From the NCBI GenBank assembly GCA_937863385.1, contig CALMBW010000013.1:1-37473 (forward strand): DNA of 37,473 nucleotides, in the 5' to 3' direction. The translations under genes were made by a program, and so were the position numbers. Of the stretch, positions 7,002 through 26,787 are shown piece after piece. The stretch is from an uncultured Actinomycetes bacterium. Lineage in GTDB: Bacteria; Actinomycetota; CADDZG01; WHSQ01. Below the pieces are notes generated by a model that was not told the DNA's origin, ran no database searches, and saw nothing but the letters and a program-made list of their open reading frames with translations. How positions within the stretch are numbered: the stretch's first letter is position 1; every line of letters starts with the position of its first letter.

Positions 7002-7715
7002 ATGGGACTACCCGACGGCATCGAGATCACATGGCTGGGCCACTCGACCTTCAAGATCAAGACTTCTGAAGGAAAGCACTTGCTTATCGACCCTTGGGTG
7101 ATGAACAACCCGGCATGCCCAGATGAGCTTAAAGATCCGGGACCCATCGACTCGATGTTGGTGACGCACGGGCATTTCGATCACATCGGAGATGCAGTGG
7201 CACTCGCTTCCGACAAGTCGCCCGAAGTCGTTGCGATCCCCGAAACCGCTCACTGGCTCGGCTCCAAGGGTGTCGAGAACCTGATCGAGATGAACAAGGG
7301 CGGCACCGTCAGTTCGGCCGGGTGCAAGGTGCATATGACGCATGCGGTGCATTCGTGCGGGATAACCGACGGGGATCGCATCATCTACGGAGGCGAAGCC
7401 GCTGGATACGTCGTCGAGCTGCCGAACGGCTACAAGATCTACCACGCAGGCGATACGGCGGCCTTCAGCGACATGACGATCATCGGCAAGCTTTTGCAGC
7501 CTGACGTCGCGCTGTTGCCGATCGGTGACTGGTTCACGATGGGTCCCCGGTCTGCCGCCGAAGCGATCCGCATGCTCAGGGTCAAAGAGGTCATCCCGAT
7601 GCACTACGGGACTTTCCCGATCCTCACCGGGACACCCGATGACCTGAGACGCGAGGCGTCTGACATCGACGGTCTCGTGGTGCACGACCTTAGCCCCGGC
7701 CAGAGCTTGAGCTAG
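7002..7715 (+). CDS. UPF0173 family metal-dependent hydrolase (metallo-beta-lactamase fold)
   Basis: A protein of 237 residues with the metallo-beta-lactamase fold. The metal motif HxHxDH is seen as THGHFDHIGD (His56, His58, Asp60, His61). Further conserved parts are the N-terminal WLGHSTFKI, IYHAGDTAAF around residue 150, and MHYGTFPILTG near the C-terminus, which together define the UPF0173 family. The reaction and substrate are not established for the family. The ATG at 7002 is chosen because GAGGAGGA lies seven bases upstream; the frame is open further upstream but overlaps the divergent lipoprotein gene. Its 3' end overlaps the convergent TPR gene by 26 bases. Confidence 0.92.
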   Translation: MGLPDGIEITWLGHSTFKIKTSEGKHLLIDPWVMNNPACPDELKDPGPIDSMLVTHGHFDHIGDAVALASDKSPEVVAIPETAHWLGSKGVENLIEMNKGGTVSSAGCKVHMTHAVHSCGITDGDRIIYGGEAAGYVVELPNGYKIYHAGDTAAFSDMTIIGKLLQPDVALLPIGDWFTMGPRSAAEAIRMLRVKEVIPMHYGTFPILTGTPDDLRREASDIDGLVVHDLSPGQSLS

Positions 7716-9024
7716 CCGCTTCGCTCAAGCTCTCGAGTTGCTCCTGAGCGAGGCCTGCGTAGCGGTAGGAGAAATAGGGATCGAGCTCCAGGGCGCCTTT
7801 GAGGTATCGCTTGGCCATCGCCTGCTCATCTAGTTCCAGGGCTGCTTGTGCCGCGAAGAAGCGCGTGTGGCTGTCACCACCGTCAGCGACCGACGCCTGC
7901 AACAGCTTCAGCGCGCGCTCGGGATACCCGGATCGGAACAATGCCCATCCCAGCGCCTCTTCGGTAGCAGCGGTTGGACGGGCTCGCTGCAGTCTGGCGG
8001 CCAGGTCGAGGGCGTGGGTGACGCGGCCGGCATCGGTTGAGAACACCGCTAGCTCGGCGTCGGGGAGCGCATCGTTGGCAAGGAACTCCTGCTCCCGCTC
8101 GAACGCCAGGTCGTAATAGCGGCCGGCTTCGGCTTCGTCTCCTTGGATCGTTGCCAACTCGGCCAATGCGCCCATGTAGGCAAGAGATGGGACCGCTTCG
8201 AAAGCTGCTTGGTACCAAGAGCGAGCTCGTTCGATATCGCCATCGACGAAAGCGAGATGGCCCTGACCGGCGAGAGTCAGGTGATCGTTCGGCGCGAGTT
8301 CGACGGCTCGTTGCAGGTGTCGTCGCGCTGCTTCTTCGTTGCCTCGTCGTAGTTCGATCATGAAGAGGTGGTAGCTGCTGTAGGCGATGTCCGCCGGACG
8401 CACGGATGTGCCCAACGCCAACCGCATCCAGCGAACCGCAGCATCGTTGTTGCCAAGGGTCTCGTAGAGATAAGAGATCCGAGAGTAAGCGGCAAGGTCC
8501 GGACGGCGATCGAGCATCTCTTGATAGGCCTCGATCGCAGCGCCATAGCGACCTTGTTCGAAGAGAGCGTCACCCAGAACACCGTACGCGGCTGCGCTTG
8601 CAGGGTTGCTTGCGATCGCTCTGTGCCCGAGTTGCTCCATATCGCCGAAACGATGCCGTGATCCGGCCAGCATGGCGCTGCCGACGAGTGCCCGGTAGTC
8701 ATCTGGATCGGCGGCAAGGGCCGACTCGAAAGAATCACCGGCCAGAGTGAGGTAGGCAGGGTCGGCTGTAGCGCGACCTTGGCGAAGGTAGGCCAGACCG
8801 AGGTCAGAATGGATTGAAGCGGGCGCATCCTCGGTGGCGAGCTGCGTTAGGCGATCGATGTCCGCCTGTGCATCGCGTCGGTCCACGGGGCTGAGTGCAC
8901 TGGCGGCGTCGACGGTAGAGCGGCCCTCATCTTTGTTGTTGCGATCGCCCCGCGCCGGCAACAAGCTGCCTCCCGCAAGGATCCCTGCCACCACAAGTGC
9001 TATCGAGACGACGGCTCTTCTCAT
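7690..9024 (-). CDS. Exported tetratricopeptide-repeat protein
   Basis: This 444-residue protein has an N-terminal hydrophobic segment (MRRAVVSIALVVAGILAGG) that serves as signal peptide or anchor. The rest is alpha-helical TPR repeats, for example AAAYGVLGDALFEQGRYGAA and VELAPNDHLTLAGQGHLAFV, through to about residue 430. It would act as a protein-interaction scaffold outside the membrane. The start is the ATG at 9024, at the head of the signal sequence; AGGAG directly abuts it and GGGGGC lies further upstream. It is the second gene after the DUF4331 protein, separated by a strong hairpin at 9048-9079. Adjacent DUF4331 and TPR genes recur in other genomes as I recall, suggesting a common but unknown function. 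Confidence 0.85.
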   Translation of the reverse strand: MRRAVVSIALVVAGILAGGSLLPARGDRNNKDEGRSTVDAASALSPVDRRDAQADIDRLTQLATEDAPASIHSDLGLAYLRQGRATADPAYLTLAGDSFESALAADPDDYRALVGSAMLAGSRHRFGDMEQLGHRAIASNPASAAAYGVLGDALFEQGRYGAAIEAYQEMLDRRPDLAAYSRISYLYETLGNNDAAVRWMRLALGTSVRPADIAYSSYHLFMIELRRGNEEAARRHLQRAVELAPNDHLTLAGQGHLAFVDGDIERARSWYQAAFEAVPSLAYMGALAELATIQGDEAEAGRYYDLAFEREQEFLANDALPDAELAVFSTDAGRVTHALDLAARLQRARPTAATEEALGWALFRSGYPERALKLLQASVADGGDSHTRFFAAQAALELDEQAMAKRYLKGALELDPYFSYRYAGLAQEQLESLSEAASSSSGRG

Positions 9025-19685: not shown

Positions 19686-21143
19686 TCAGGGCCCGACGAG
19701 CCCCAGAGACTCGGCCATCAGGGACTCGCTGATCGAGATCAAGCCCCCGATCCATCGGCCCCACCGATCCGAGCTAGAGGTGCAGGCGACTCCGGCATCC
19801 CTCAAGAAGTCGTAGGCCATCGCCCGTGCCTGCTCGGACGCGGTGATGGCGGAGTGACCGGACAGGCTCCATTCGCTGCGCACGGTGCGCGACTCACCTT
19901 CATCCAACTGGGTCACGGTGGCGGGAACCACGATGTCTTCGGGGATGCTTAGCGAGAGATAGCGAGTGCCGAAGGGCGTGGTTCCGGCTGCCAATGCCTC
20001 CATCAGCTCGGATCCAGGCGCCAACTGTGCTACCGCCTCAGAGGTGGGGTCGGGAAGGGCCACCATCCCCCGGCGGGCGGCTCCACCGACCAGCTTCAAG
20101 GCGAGAGATCCGAGGTTGCCGTCGTCCAACATCTCTTTCATCTCACCCGCGAGTGGTGCGCCCTCGTGCGGACTCGAGAAGGTGACAAGATGCTCGATCA
20201 CCGGCAGAGAATCATCGTTGTAGCGATCCATCAACTCTAAGAAGGTACGAGAGACGATCCCGCCCTGGCTGTGTGCGATCAGGTCCACGCCTCGGCCGGG
20301 ATGCAACTGCTTGATCTTTCTAAGTAGCGTGGCCAGCTTCGAAGCGGAACGCCTGATGTCGTCGAACGTGTCGCGAGGGTCGTAGGCACGATGCAGTTCG
20401 GGTGCTTCGATACCCGAATACGAGAACCGGTAGACACGCTCGCTGGGATAGCCCAGAAGCTCGGGCGGGTGCTCGAAGATGTCGGCGCTGTCCGACGAGC
20501 TACCGATCCCCGCTACCGCCACTGCGATGTTGTCGTTCGGCGGCGCGTCGGCTCGCCCGAGGTCGCGTCGCTCGACGCAGGCTGCCGGGGCGGTGAACCT
20601 GCTCTTTGGAGGGGTCACGCCGAACAGGTCCCAAACCTCTTCGGCGTCGCCGACGGGGACGTCGACAAGGCTGATCGCGGCCGACACGTCCTGGGTGACG
20701 AGCCTGTCGCGCGGGTCGATGTAGGCACCGTGGAGTTTCATCCCGAAGTGGAGCCCCTCGCGGCCGCCGGGATGGACCACACCGGCGGTACCCACCGGAG
20801 TCCCGGCCCCCACGCTATCCCCCGCCGCGACCGCGATGCTCGAGAGCATCGAGTAGGTGGTTTCGAGCCCCGAACCATGATCGATCGTGACGACATCGCG
20901 TCCCGCAACAGGACCGGCGAAAGAAACCGTCCCTGCGTCGGAAGCGGCAACGGTCGTGCCCGGCGGCACCGGGAAGTCGACACCACGATGGCCCGGCCCG
21001 AAAACGGTCGATGGCGGTTCGAAACCCCGTTCTATCGACGCTTCCACCGGCGGAAGAAAGACAGGGGGGGTCGCGCCCGCTCGCTCGGACGTTCCCAGGT
21101 TCACCACGAGCGCGGTTGCTGCAACAAGAAGTAGTGGTCGCAT
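19686..21143 (-). CDS. Exported fusion of a degenerate LytM (M23) domain and an alpha/beta hydrolase
   Basis: A 485-residue protein with a signal peptide (about 1-24). Residues about 45-150 form an M23/LytM domain: GHRGVDFPVPPGTTVAASDAG supplies zinc ligands His52 and Asp56, and LHFG supplies His132. The two catalytic histidines appear lost: YSML has Met99 where YAHL is usual, and GLHFG has Gly130 where HLHFE is usual. Residues about 205-450 form a lipase-like alpha/beta hydrolase with oxyanion region AGIGSSSDS, nucleophile Ser292 in IAHSQGGIVSR and a late histidine in SLSGHSAITAS. The hydrolase is probably active. The LytM part more likely binds cell wall. It may be the third gene after the purine permease and carbamate kinase. 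Confidence 0.85.
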   Translation of the reverse strand: MRPLLLVAATALVVNLGTSERAGATPPVFLPPVEASIERGFEPPSTVFGPGHRGVDFPVPPGTTVAASDAGTVSFAGPVAGRDVVTIDHGSGLETTYSMLSSIAVAAGDSVGAGTPVGTAGVVHPGGREGLHFGMKLHGAYIDPRDRLVTQDVSAAISLVDVPVGDAEEVWDLFGVTPPKSRFTAPAACVERRDLGRADAPPNDNIAVAVAGIGSSSDSADIFEHPPELLGYPSERVYRFSYSGIEAPELHRAYDPRDTFDDIRRSASKLATLLRKIKQLHPGRGVDLIAHSQGGIVSRTFLELMDRYNDDSLPVIEHLVTFSSPHEGAPLAGEMKEMLDDGNLGSLALKLVGGAARRGMVALPDPTSEAVAQLAPGSELMEALAAGTTPFGTRYLSLSIPEDIVVPATVTQLDEGESRTVRSEWSLSGHSAITASEQARAMAYDFLRDAGVACTSSSDRWGRWIGGLISISESLMAESLGLVGP

Positions 21144-23755: not shown

Positions 23756-25588
23756 CTACCCCTGTGGCGGCTTGCCCTCTTTCACCGGGCCGCTGGTGGC
23801 TGGCCCACCGGAACCCTCGATGATGATCGTGATGTTCCGGCGGCCCGTCACCACCTCGTCCAGGCTCACCAGTTGCTCGGAAAGGAGCCCGCCGCGGCCC
23901 CCATAGAGGTCGACGGACATCTCGTTGCCCTTGGGAGCGGTCTCGAAGCTCTCGATGAGATCGGCGAGGCTTTCGATGTCGTCCTCGCCCGCCGAGCACT
24001 CGGAATACTCGGTGAAACAGTAGTAGTCGTACAAGTAGCGATACTGCTGGCCCGAGATCCGCAGGAAGCCCCGCGTCTTGATCGAGCGGGGCACCTCGAC
24101 CGTGCTTTCGACCACGATGTTAGCGGTCTCGTCGTTGGGCTCGAGTTCGAAGCGCAGGTAGACGGTTCCGCCACGCTCGATGCGCACCCTGCGCCCCGAT
24201 GAATACTCGACACCATCTCCGGAGACTTCGGTCTTGACCAGCTTGTAGCGCTCGATCTCGTCATCCACGGTGGCATCGACATCCACACCCGTGAACTCGA
24301 TATCTTCGAACTGGTTCGCGAACAGGGTGTACAGCTGCAACTCCAGCTCGAAGAGACTTCCGTAAGCGATGTCGTACTCGTCGGCGAAGACATTCGAACG
24401 TTCGAGCTGCCACGGCTCACCGCTTTCCGTCGTCCCAGTGATCGTCCAGCTGAGTGCCGAGCTCCCCGGCCCGATCTCGTCCCAGGTGAAGTCGATGTTG
24501 GCGAGCATGTGGGACATGGCGATCATCGGCACGAATTCGGACCCGACCACATCGCTGCTCCCGTCTCTGCTGGACGAGCCATCGGCGGTCTGAACCGTGG
24601 AGGTGACGGGGATCGTTGCAGGCCCGGCTCCAAGCAGGGCGCGGATCCCTGCGAAGCGGTCCTGATCGACCGTTCCGATAGACCCGGTCACATTCGCAAG
24701 CTTGTAGGACCCGAACGTGGGGTCGTTCACGATAGCGATGGCCGAAGCTCCGCTACCGCCGGCGGTCGTCTCACCTTGAGGGAAGTAGAAGAAGGGGTGG
24801 CCGAAGGCGAGCACCTTGCCTTCACACACATAGGTGGCAGTCCCAACACCGGCGAAAGAAACGTCTCCGTAGGAAAGGACCGCAGCGAAGTTTCCACCCG
24901 CCTCTACCGGTGCAGCGGCCTGCTGTGGGCTGGCCGATGCAGAAGCGCCGGCATACGGGATCAATGGCAGGTTCTCGCGCTCGATCGCTTCCGAGATCTC
25001 CTGCATCACTCGTGGGCCTGCGCCCGAAACCGAGAGCGGTGTGTTCAACCGCTTCATCGTCGAGGACACGCTTGACGATGACGTGGCGCGTTCGATCATC
25101 CTCACCATCTCGCTATCGAGTGAGACCTTGCGGACCTCTCGGGCGGACGTGGTGGGACGCTCGGCGATATCCAACATGTCTTGCGCCGGTGTCATGCCAC
25201 CGATGGTCGAGGGCCCGTAGCTCAATCCGAATGCGATCGCACCCACCAGCTCCCCGTTGACATACACGGGCGAGCCCGACATCCCGGCCCAGATGCCGCC
25301 CGCAGCCCGGATCGCCAAAGAATCCACATCCACGACGATCAGGTCACGCCCAGGACCGATGCCGTTCTCCATGACGCCGAGGATCTCGGCCGTGAATTGC
25401 TCGGGCTCTTCACCCTTGGAAACCGTGTAGCCGATCCCGTTCATGCCCTCTTGGACTTCGTCGACGGGCATCACCGTCGGACAGTCGGCGAGTTGCGCGA
25501 TCGCCGGGGCCGCCGACAGTGCTCCTCCGATGAGGCAAGCCGTCATCACGATCGTTAGCCGCCGATAGACGACCCTTGCATCCTTCAA
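23756..25588 (-). CDS. Exported SpoIVB-type serine peptidase (S55) domain protein
   Basis: A 610-residue protein with a signal peptide (about 1-32, ending APAIAQ). The S55 region follows: MPVDEVQEGMNGIGYTVS, a PDZ-like portion, and GIWAGMSGSPVYVNGELVGA, whose Ser in GMSGSPV (about 104-106) is the nucleophile region in SpoIVB. The remaining two thirds contain VCEGKVLAFGHPFFYFPQGE, also conserved in non-sporulating relatives, and beta-rich sequence to the end. SpoIVB cleaves a sporulation regulator in Bacillus; the actinobacterial relatives have no known target. The TTG start at 25588 is chosen because GAAGGGGG lies upstream and the signal peptide follows directly. Transcription ends at the hairpin at 23701-23740. 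It is divergent from isocitrate dehydrogenase. Confidence 0.85.
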   Translation of the reverse strand: MKDARVVYRRLTIVMTACLIGGALSAAPAIAQLADCPTVMPVDEVQEGMNGIGYTVSKGEEPEQFTAEILGVMENGIGPGRDLIVVDVDSLAIRAAGGIWAGMSGSPVYVNGELVGAIAFGLSYGPSTIGGMTPAQDMLDIAERPTTSAREVRKVSLDSEMVRMIERATSSSSVSSTMKRLNTPLSVSGAGPRVMQEISEAIERENLPLIPYAGASASASPQQAAAPVEAGGNFAAVLSYGDVSFAGVGTATYVCEGKVLAFGHPFFYFPQGETTAGGSGASAIAIVNDPTFGSYKLANVTGSIGTVDQDRFAGIRALLGAGPATIPVTSTVQTADGSSSRDGSSDVVGSEFVPMIAMSHMLANIDFTWDEIGPGSSALSWTITGTTESGEPWQLERSNVFADEYDIAYGSLFELELQLYTLFANQFEDIEFTGVDVDATVDDEIERYKLVKTEVSGDGVEYSSGRRVRIERGGTVYLRFELEPNDETANIVVESTVEVPRSIKTRGFLRISGQQYRYLYDYYCFTEYSECSAGEDDIESLADLIESFETAPKGNEMSVDLYGGRGGLLSEQLVSLDEVVTGRRNITIIIEGSGGPATSGPVKEGKPPQG

Positions 25589-25701
25589 CCTCGTACCCCC
25601 TTCTAGCGCCGGGCGCCGGTGCCCGGACGTCCGCTTCCACTGTTGCATCGTCGTGCTTAAGACGGTCTTCGTCCAGAGAAAGTTGCCGGGAGCCGGGGCG
25701 A

Positions 25702-25713
25702 TATCTTGTTGGC
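25702..25713 (+). promoter_or_regulatory. Leaderless -10 box for isocitrate dehydrogenase
   Basis: TATCTT (25702-25707) ends six bases before the ATG at 25714; no Shine-Dalgarno sequence precedes the start. Confidence 0.6.
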
Positions 25714-26787
25714 ATGACAACCGTGACCCTCATACCAGGAGACGGGATCGGCCCCGAGGTCTCCGAAGCGACCAAGCGCGTGGTCGATTCGCTGGGGGCC
25801 GGGATCGAATGGGAGGAGCACACCGCCGGAGCGGGCGCGATCGAAAGTCACGGTGACCCTCTCCCAGATCACGTCCTCGAATCGATCCGGCGCAACAAAG
25901 TGGCGATCAAGGGTCCCGTGACGACACCGGTAGGGACCGGCTTCAGGTCGATCAACGTCGCCTTGCGGCAAGAGCTCGACCTATTCGCCTCGGTCCGGCC
26001 ATGCCACCTTTTCCCCGGAGTTCCCTCACGTTTCGAGGGCATCGACATCGTCGTCGTACGCGAGAACACCGAGGATCTCTACGAAGGCATCGAGTTCGAG
26101 ATGGGGTCGCCCGAGCTCGAGAAGCTCCGCGGCTATATCAAGTACATGCACAACTTCCCCATCCGGGCCGACGCCGGCGTCTCGGTGAAACCGATCTCCG
26201 TTGGTGCAACAAAGGCCATCACCGAGTTCGCCTTCGAGTACGCCAAACGTCACCGCCGGCGCAAGGTGACCCTCGGGCACAAGGCCAACATCATGAAGCA
26301 CTCCGACGGCGTGTGGTTGGCCTCGGGTCAAGAGATGGCGTCACAGTACAGGGACGTCGGTTTCGAGGAGATGCAGGTCGACGAGATGGCGATGTGGCTG
26401 GCGTGGCATCCCCAAGACCTAGATGTCGTCGTGCTTCCCAACCTCTACGGCGACATCATCTCGGATCTGTGTGCAGGACTGATCGGGGGGCTGGGCGTGG
26501 CACCCGGCATGAACATCGGAAAGGATTACGCCGTTTTCGAACCCACGCACGGCAGCGCACCCGACATCGCCGGGCAGAACATCGCCAACCCGATCGCCAT
26601 GATCCTTTCGGCCGGTTTGATGCTGCGGCACCTCAATCTCGATGCAGCCGCGGACAACCTCGAGGGGGCCGTCGCAGCAGTGCTGGCCGAAGGCAAGGTT
26701 CGCCCTCCCGACCTGAAACCGTACGGCGAGCCCGCAAAGACCTCCGAAGTGGCCGACGCCATCATCGGACAGTTGAGTACTGGTTGA
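25714..26787 (+). CDS. NAD-type isocitrate dehydrogenase (IDH/IMDH family)
   Basis: A 357-residue beta-decarboxylating dehydrogenase. It has LIPGDGIGPEV at the start, KGPVTTPVGTGFRSINVALRQ with the substrate-binding Ser/Asn of isocitrate enzymes, and DLFASVRP, VRENTEDLYEGIE, VLPNLYGDIISDL and EPTHGSAPDIAGQ. The SxN-xx-LR motif separates it from 3-isopropylmalate dehydrogenases. It converts isocitrate to 2-oxoglutarate in the citrate cycle, most like the NAD-dependent homo-oligomeric type. It starts at the ATG at 25714 with a leaderless box. The stop TGA overlaps the TTG start of the next gene. Related dicarboxylic acid dehydrogenases cannot be wholly excluded. Confidence 0.9.
   Translation: MTTVTLIPGDGIGPEVSEATKRVVDSLGAGIEWEEHTAGAGAIESHGDPLPDHVLESIRRNKVAIKGPVTTPVGTGFRSINVALRQELDLFASVRPCHLFPGVPSRFEGIDIVVVRENTEDLYEGIEFEMGSPELEKLRGYIKYMHNFPIRADAGVSVKPISVGATKAITEFAFEYAKRHRRRKVTLGHKANIMKHSDGVWLASGQEMASQYRDVGFEEMQVDEMAMWLAWHPQDLDVVVLPNLYGDIISDLCAGLIGGLGVAPGMNIGKDYAVFEPTHGSAPDIAGQNIANPIAMILSAGLMLRHLNLDAAADNLEGAVAAVLAEGKVRPPDLKPYGEPAKTSEVADAIIGQLSTG

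Follow-up and report, generated by a model that had tools for sequence, protein, structure and literature searches.

An M23 domain that lacks both catalytic histidines is fused to a lipase-like hydrolase in Actinomycetota

What could be the role of a peptidase domain that keeps the ligands of its zinc, lacks the histidines of its catalysis and is joined to a lipase-like hydrolase? This question is raised by a gene on the reverse strand (19686..21143) of the window, i.e., the whole stretch of 37,473 nucleotides analysed here. The gene encodes a protein of 485 residues from an ATG start and is kept in relatives; the open reading frame, its coordinates and the residue numbering had been given correctly in an earlier, sequence-only reading of this DNA. 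From the N-terminus, and always on the same strand, the protein consists of a predicted signal peptide (residues 1-25, 21069..21143; recognised by eye as a hydrophobic run followed by AGA, with residues 2-16 helical in the AlphaFold2 model), a degenerate M23/LytM domain (residues 28-150, 20694..21062), a linker of variable length among relatives (residues 151-203, 20535..20693), an alpha/beta hydrolase domain of lipase fold (residues 204-455, 19779..20534) and a C-terminal helix in the model (residues 457-482, 19698..19775). The fusion protein is thus laid out as a probably exported or secreted one. The AlphaFold2 model, built from a 38-row alignment, had a mean pLDDT of 86.8 and a pTM of 0.65, with the linker poorly predicted (pLDDT <50 at residues 157-166 and 178-185).

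The N-terminal half belongs to the M23 family by sequence, with a Pfam Peptidase_M23 match (PF01551) at residues 51-144 that scored 71.3 bits against a curated cut-off of 28.7 (E 7.7e-20). As claimed before, H52 (20988..20990), D56 (20976..20978) and H132 (20748..20750) align with the M23 zinc ligands, HxxxD and the final His. These predicted ligands are kept in 39, 41 and 44 of the 44 distinct fused relatives, respectively, and the triple is complete in 38/44. The set of 44 proteins was obtained after removal of duplicates, of M23 matches shorter than 90 residues and of proteins with a missing or incomplete M23 domain (including L020/L051, L021/L052 and L075). From the three ligands, we infer that the M23 half binds zinc. 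The positions of the two catalytic histidines are occupied by M99 (20847..20849) and G130 (20754..20756), which was also part of the sequence-only reading. In the PDB, the M23 half is closest to entries of Campylobacter Pgp3, and in the printed alignments Met99 is paired with the Ala of the Pgp3 mutant H216A (6jn7) and Gly130 with that of H247A (6jmz). At each of the two columns His was found in 0/44 distinct fused relatives, and hence both catalytic histidines are missing in 44/44. Peptidases of the M23/LytM type, such as Pgp3 and S. aureus LytM, share the fold and the zinc ligands with the window protein; they differ from it in having His where it has Met99 and Gly130, and in the absence of the fused lipase domain.

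The non-fused M23 rows (n=80, canonical and second domains included) showed that this state is not confined to the fusions. H52 and D56 were each present in 80/80 and H132 in 75/80, while position 99 was Pro in 54/80 and His in 7/80, and position 130 was Cys in 43/80 and His in 16/80. Altogether, both histidines were absent in 105/124 distinct M23 rows, which had been sampled for their similarity to the window protein. The degeneration had been called unusual, which holds in comparison with EnvC and NlpD but not within this actinobacterial subfamily. When columns 99 and 130 were blanked, an M23 tree of the 124 rows, made by a quick method, required one change for the presence of the first His and seven for the second; this fits a first His that was lost once, early on, and a second that was lost repeatedly, on a tree that leaves the direction of change unset. 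The same quick M23-only tree gave four changes for the fusion, which is a soft figure.

A disarmed domain in one protein could also be the product of a chance fusion, a frameshift or an assembly error. Such an explanation, for which nothing was found in favour, has a negligible probability and is refuted by the counts in the family, the collection and the phylum and by the conservation of sites. The window's family was represented by 16 genomes, of which 13 had one match spanning both domains, two had the hydrolase part with the M23 domain missing or incomplete (one match at a contig edge, one with an N-stretch), and one (83% complete) gave no match at E 1e-30. The sequence-only reading would have been undermined by absence of the fusion in close relatives, and the opposite was observed. 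The search for the same domain order, which it had proposed, found the fusion also in the phylum sample of 396 genomes and in the named collection. In the phylum sample, 66 genomes had a match at E 1e-42, and in 32/396 the match ran in one frame from profile position <=30 to >=420 (long-linker forms are perhaps undercounted). In the named collection, both domains lay in one open reading frame in 19 of 80 loci (the best 80 of 386 relatives), with titles of Nitriliruptoraceae, Acidimicrobiia or Acidimicrobiales, Actinomycetes and unclassified Actinomycetota, and one each of Acidobacteria and Bifidobacterium breve; three of these 19 (L061, L062 and L067) are the same contigs as in genomes of the window's family. 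The loci titled Acidobacteria and Bifidobacterium breve (L066 and L072) have the rpsB locus of actinobacteria, and their proteins cluster with those of Acidimicrobiales/Actinomycetota; the two records are likely mislabelled MAGs. The fusion is old and widespread.

Purifying selection acts on both halves, and it retains the disarmed M23 domain. Of five pairs compared, four (L009/L011 among them, with dS >1) had a dN/dS of about 0.13-0.48 in each half, and the fifth (L069/L072) was saturated. Mean pairwise identity was higher in the M23 half than in the hydrolase half, both among 13 proteins of the window's family (0.559 vs 0.483) and among 15 proteins of a second group (0.581 vs 0.518). Since the M23 half is the more alike of the two and dN/dS is low, the domain has been kept though disarmed. 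A decaying pseudogene was ruled out by dN/dS and conservation. A phage lysin was not favoured either, as the 13 PHROGs matches cover the M23 half only.

The hydrolase half exceeded the Pfam cut-offs of DUF7379 (271-357), Palm_thioest (272-329) and PGAP1 (272-334), and further alpha/beta-hydrolase families matched within 271-357 below their cut-offs. The alpha/beta-hydrolase fold was recovered on the predicted model. In VIA-align, where rows within 1 Z are tied and families absent from the match list are still possible, residues 200-458 matched Legionella PlaB (Z 20.2, rmsd 3.3, 229 aligned), the Streptomyces lipase 5h6g/5h6b (Z 20.1, rmsd 3.3-3.5, 211-217 aligned; 5h6g itself Z 20.1, rmsd 3.5, 217 aligned) and CalB (Z 19.0, rmsd 3.1, 208 aligned). 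A profile search also gave the Streptomyces lipase entries (5h6g, E 2.6e-10; 5h6b, E 3.6e-10). The nucleophile motif had been judged good, and S292 (20268..20270) in AHSQGG was indeed present in 44/44 fused relatives. The acid D403 (19935..19937; 44/44) and the histidine H430 (19854..19856; 43/44, one row gapped) were assigned by motif order and conservation and would complete a Ser-Asp-His triad with S292 at the nucleophile elbow; the three occur together in 43/44, the remaining row being the gapped one. The fold and the triad are shared with secreted alpha/beta-fold lipases (5h6b/5h6g, BlEst2, CalB, and the PGAP1, DUF7379 and palmitoyl-thioesterase Pfam families), from which the window protein differs in being only distant in sequence and in adding an N-terminal M23 module.

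What the disarmed half could do is suggested by Pgp3. According to the Pgp3 report, H216 and H247 do not bind the zinc and were exchanged in order to weaken catalysis; the H247A protein still carried zinc, and its structure was determined with penta- and tetra-tri-peptides (PMC6978369). An M23 domain without a catalytic His can therefore bind stem peptides, and by this precedent the N-terminal half is read as a peptide-binding zinc pseudo-peptidase and the C-terminal half as a working lipase or esterase. The M23 domain of the window protein is a natural equivalent of Pgp3 H216A/H247A. We therefore read the whole as an exported lipase or esterase with an N-terminal, zinc-keeping M23 pseudo-peptidase that binds peptidoglycan peptides, a reading that we hold to be somewhat likelier to be right than wrong. 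The M23 groove would retain zinc and capture stem peptides of peptidoglycan without cutting them, as in the H247A crystals with added muramyl peptides; the flexible linker would keep the lipase at the wall; and the lipase would cleave off a lipid or acyl group that is ester-bound in the envelope. The module was also reused before other hydrolases, and in other actinobacteria it is found on its own at the rpsB locus. The wall-targeted lipase or esterase of the sequence-only reading accordingly survives as the best reading, being partly supported by the conserved triad, the modelled lipase fold and the occurrence of the M23 domain before other catalytic domains.

A conserved His, H124 (20772..20774), lies in the loop that directly precedes the last zinc ligand and had been overlooked earlier. 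A loop His was present in 37/38 zinc-complete and in 1/6 zinc-incomplete fused relatives (Fisher p 3e-5, with kinship ignored), and His also stood at the H124 column in 53/80 non-fused rows. When mapped on a 44-row tree built from the hydrolase half, the broken zinc triple of six relatives took three changes. In two separate lineages, L022 of the window's family and the clade L066/L068/L069/L072, H52 was changed to Asn and the loop was shortened or lost, which accounts for five of the six; in the third case, L149, D56 was changed to Ala and the loop His was kept. The loop and the metal site thus look coupled: the loop His tracks the zinc triple, and where H52 became Asn the loop was shortened or lost as well. 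H124 could be a displaced catalytic residue, an extra zinc ligand or a structural lid. An alignment with the catalytic histidines displaced but present would have spoken against the earlier claim of their loss; a conserved His was indeed found nearby, whereas both canonical columns are without His.

The coupling leaves room for residual catalysis, contrary to the reading of a wall-docked lipase with a pseudo-peptidase. The protein could then be a bifunctional enzyme, with H124 as the general base or as a fourth zinc ligand displaced by substrate, the M23 half cutting cross-links and the lipase acting on lipids. The association of loop and triple, its parallel loss in the two lineages and the His of the non-fused rows all agree with this. 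However, loop length and the placement of the His vary among the fused relatives, L081 has a complete zinc triple without a loop His, and L149 has the loop His without D56. Moreover, both Pgp3 histidines are said to contact the position of the hydrolytic water (PMC6978369), and neither is left here. A bifunctional enzyme is considered unlikely. The broken triple in 6/44, on the other hand, counts also against the zinc-keeping pseudo-peptidase preferred here, as zinc would be inessential to some members.

Another alternative is an activator like EnvC, in which the M23 groove would bind and switch on a partner amidase and the lipase would be a second output at the division site. The structural modelling and LytM comparison recommended in the sequence-only reading were run, and residues 24-152 of the model matched Csd3 (Z 20.4, rmsd 2.2, 120 aligned) and also the LytM domains of EnvC and DipM (Z 19.6-20.1, rmsd 2.5-3.7, 124-133 aligned; VIA-align), with Z 19.6-20.1 to the EnvC chains 4bh5, 8c0j and 8tzl, i.e., a Z of about 20 throughout. 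EnvC, NlpD, Csd2 and mammalian LECT2 likewise have an M23 fold without the full catalytic set; in a review of the M23 family, LECT2 lacks a catalytic histidine, and degenerate M23 folds are described as protein-interaction parts that act mostly through protein contacts (PMC9662197). However, EnvC and NlpD are described as degenerate at the zinc-binding motif (PMC8594824), whereas the window protein, like most of its fused relatives, has a complete triple; it further differs from the four in having the hydrolase on the same chain and a conserved loop His. The secondary structure of the model is also without a long N-terminal coiled coil. An activator of this kind appears quite improbable.

The preferred reading of a docked lipase gains from the other partners of the module. 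The same degenerate M23 domain stands N-terminal to PF06259 Abhydrolase_8 in three proteins of a sister family (L026, L059 and L060), and N-terminal to a canonical M23 domain in L086, L098, L117 and L130. One M23 module with several catalytic partners is the pattern expected of a docking or regulatory domain. In three of the four tandem N-terminal copies the last zinc His is replaced, by Asp in L086 and L098 and by Asn in L117. These lost ligands argue that zinc may be dispensable in some settings, and together with the broken triples of the fusions they weigh against a strictly zinc-keeping pseudo-peptidase. Both fusion types were observed on one contig of genome G022 (L025 and L060).

The gene order pointed to a recurrent setting of the module. 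On an Acidimicrobiia contig (L065), the Pfam order was ComM-like (opposite strand), XerC-like integrase, sigma factor, fusion, beta-propeller, rpsB, tsf, amino-acid kinase (pyrH), frr and cytidylyltransferase. The beta-propeller gene between the fusion and rpsB is of PQQ/BamB type (7631-8857, + strand, of L065) and was likewise seen in L077, L079, L082 and L091. The ten L065 proteins were compared by tblastn with 38 loci chosen from 157, of which 37 were those of relatives. In 27/37 relatives' loci examined, rpsB adjoins a degenerate M23 gene, whether fused, tandem or alone, and the usual slot lies between xerC/whiG-type genes and rpsB-tsf-pyrH-frr, with xerC or the sigma factor unmatched in some loci. 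Fusions occupy it in Acidimicrobiia-type and Nitriliruptoraceae loci, tandem M23 genes in L086, L098, L117 and L130, and standalone degenerate M23 genes in Streptomyces (L096), Amycolatopsis (L076 and L108), Blastococcus (L103) and others. The ten relatives' loci without an rpsB match were L061, L062 and L067 of the window's family, L025, L026 and L070 of the sister family, L069 and L074, in which the contig ends near the M23 gene, and L030 and L089. That the M23 domain occurs alone in many actinobacteria, with no lipase on the chain, is a further point against tying its function to a lipase.

In the window's genome, xerC, sigma, rpsB, tsf, pyrH and frr are in place, with the matches of sigma and rpsB 80 bases apart. 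The rpsB slot, which is filled in relatives from other groups, is empty there, and the gene sits at a different place; it has thus moved to its position in the window. Its neighbours after relocation are kept in the window's family, i.e., a gene for a YgjP-like protein and, in several relatives, one for an amino-acid-kinase-family protein, which is carbamate-kinase-like by our own reading. The kinship of the window protein to the rpsB-linked M23 subfamily thus rests on sequence and not on position: the subfamily motifs are the same, and relatives of the window protein share the locus. In the Streptomyces and Amycolatopsis loci that were examined, the rpsB-linked proteins stand alone; the window gene, in contrast, has changed its place and encodes a lipase fusion. 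The recurrence of a disarmed M23 domain at one conserved position suggests an old docking module and not a freak protein, and the window protein is more readily understood as one variant within a long-established M23 subfamily of actinobacteria than as an isolated curiosity. No report of an M23-lipase fusion or of an rpsB-linked M23 family was found in the openly accessible literature. The member of this family in M. tuberculosis would presumably be Rv2891, which we take to lie beside rpsB. The three M23 genes of this species are given as Rv0950c, Rv2891 and Rv3786c in the Rv0950c paper (PMC8594824).

The same gene orders bear on the possibility of a secreted antibacterial toxin, with the M23 half for targeting and the lipase as warhead, like M23 bacteriocins or lipase effectors. 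The Tle3 effector-lipase profile matched the window protein below its cut-off (E 0.0015, 18.5 vs 27 bits), 18/38 aligned relatives matched it at E 0.01, and L072 exceeded the cut-off (31.8 bits). However, the gene is found in 15/16 family genomes (13 full-length, two partial) with conserved neighbours, and at the rpsB locus in other classes. A toxin is therefore very doubtful.

A wider form of the docking reading may be put forward tentatively, though it is itself improbable. These proteins would be rpsB-rooted, ancient zinc pseudo-peptidases with a rebuilt metal site, in which the loop His closes the zinc or replaces the base, and the groove would be a zinc-dependent receptor of peptidoglycan peptides that positions or gates the joined hydrolase (lipase, Abhydrolase_8 or working M23). 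If this is true, hydrolysis of lipids or esters would be linked to the state of the wall. If the domain is simply a binder, it would be a module ready for docking to the wall, and the lipase joined to it would point to an envelope ester in little-studied actinobacteria. In either event, an 'M23 metallopeptidase' annotated at the rpsB locus, from Streptomyces to Acidimicrobiia, probably does not cleave peptidoglycan in the canonical way, and it would be misleading to annotate activity from the zinc ligands alone. For example, in the Rv0950c paper the zinc motif is the mark of activity, and the word 'histidine' is absent from its main text (PMC8594824).

Two other observations concern the window's genome. 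An MlaD/MCE protein (PF02470, PF11887) with a C-terminal M23 domain is encoded by L002 (G000:C18, 1426-3096, minus strand), and this domain keeps the first catalytic His and has Asn at the second. In the window itself, a SpoIVB-type S55 peptidase-like protein (PF05580, E 3.8e-12) is encoded at 23756-25720 on the minus strand.
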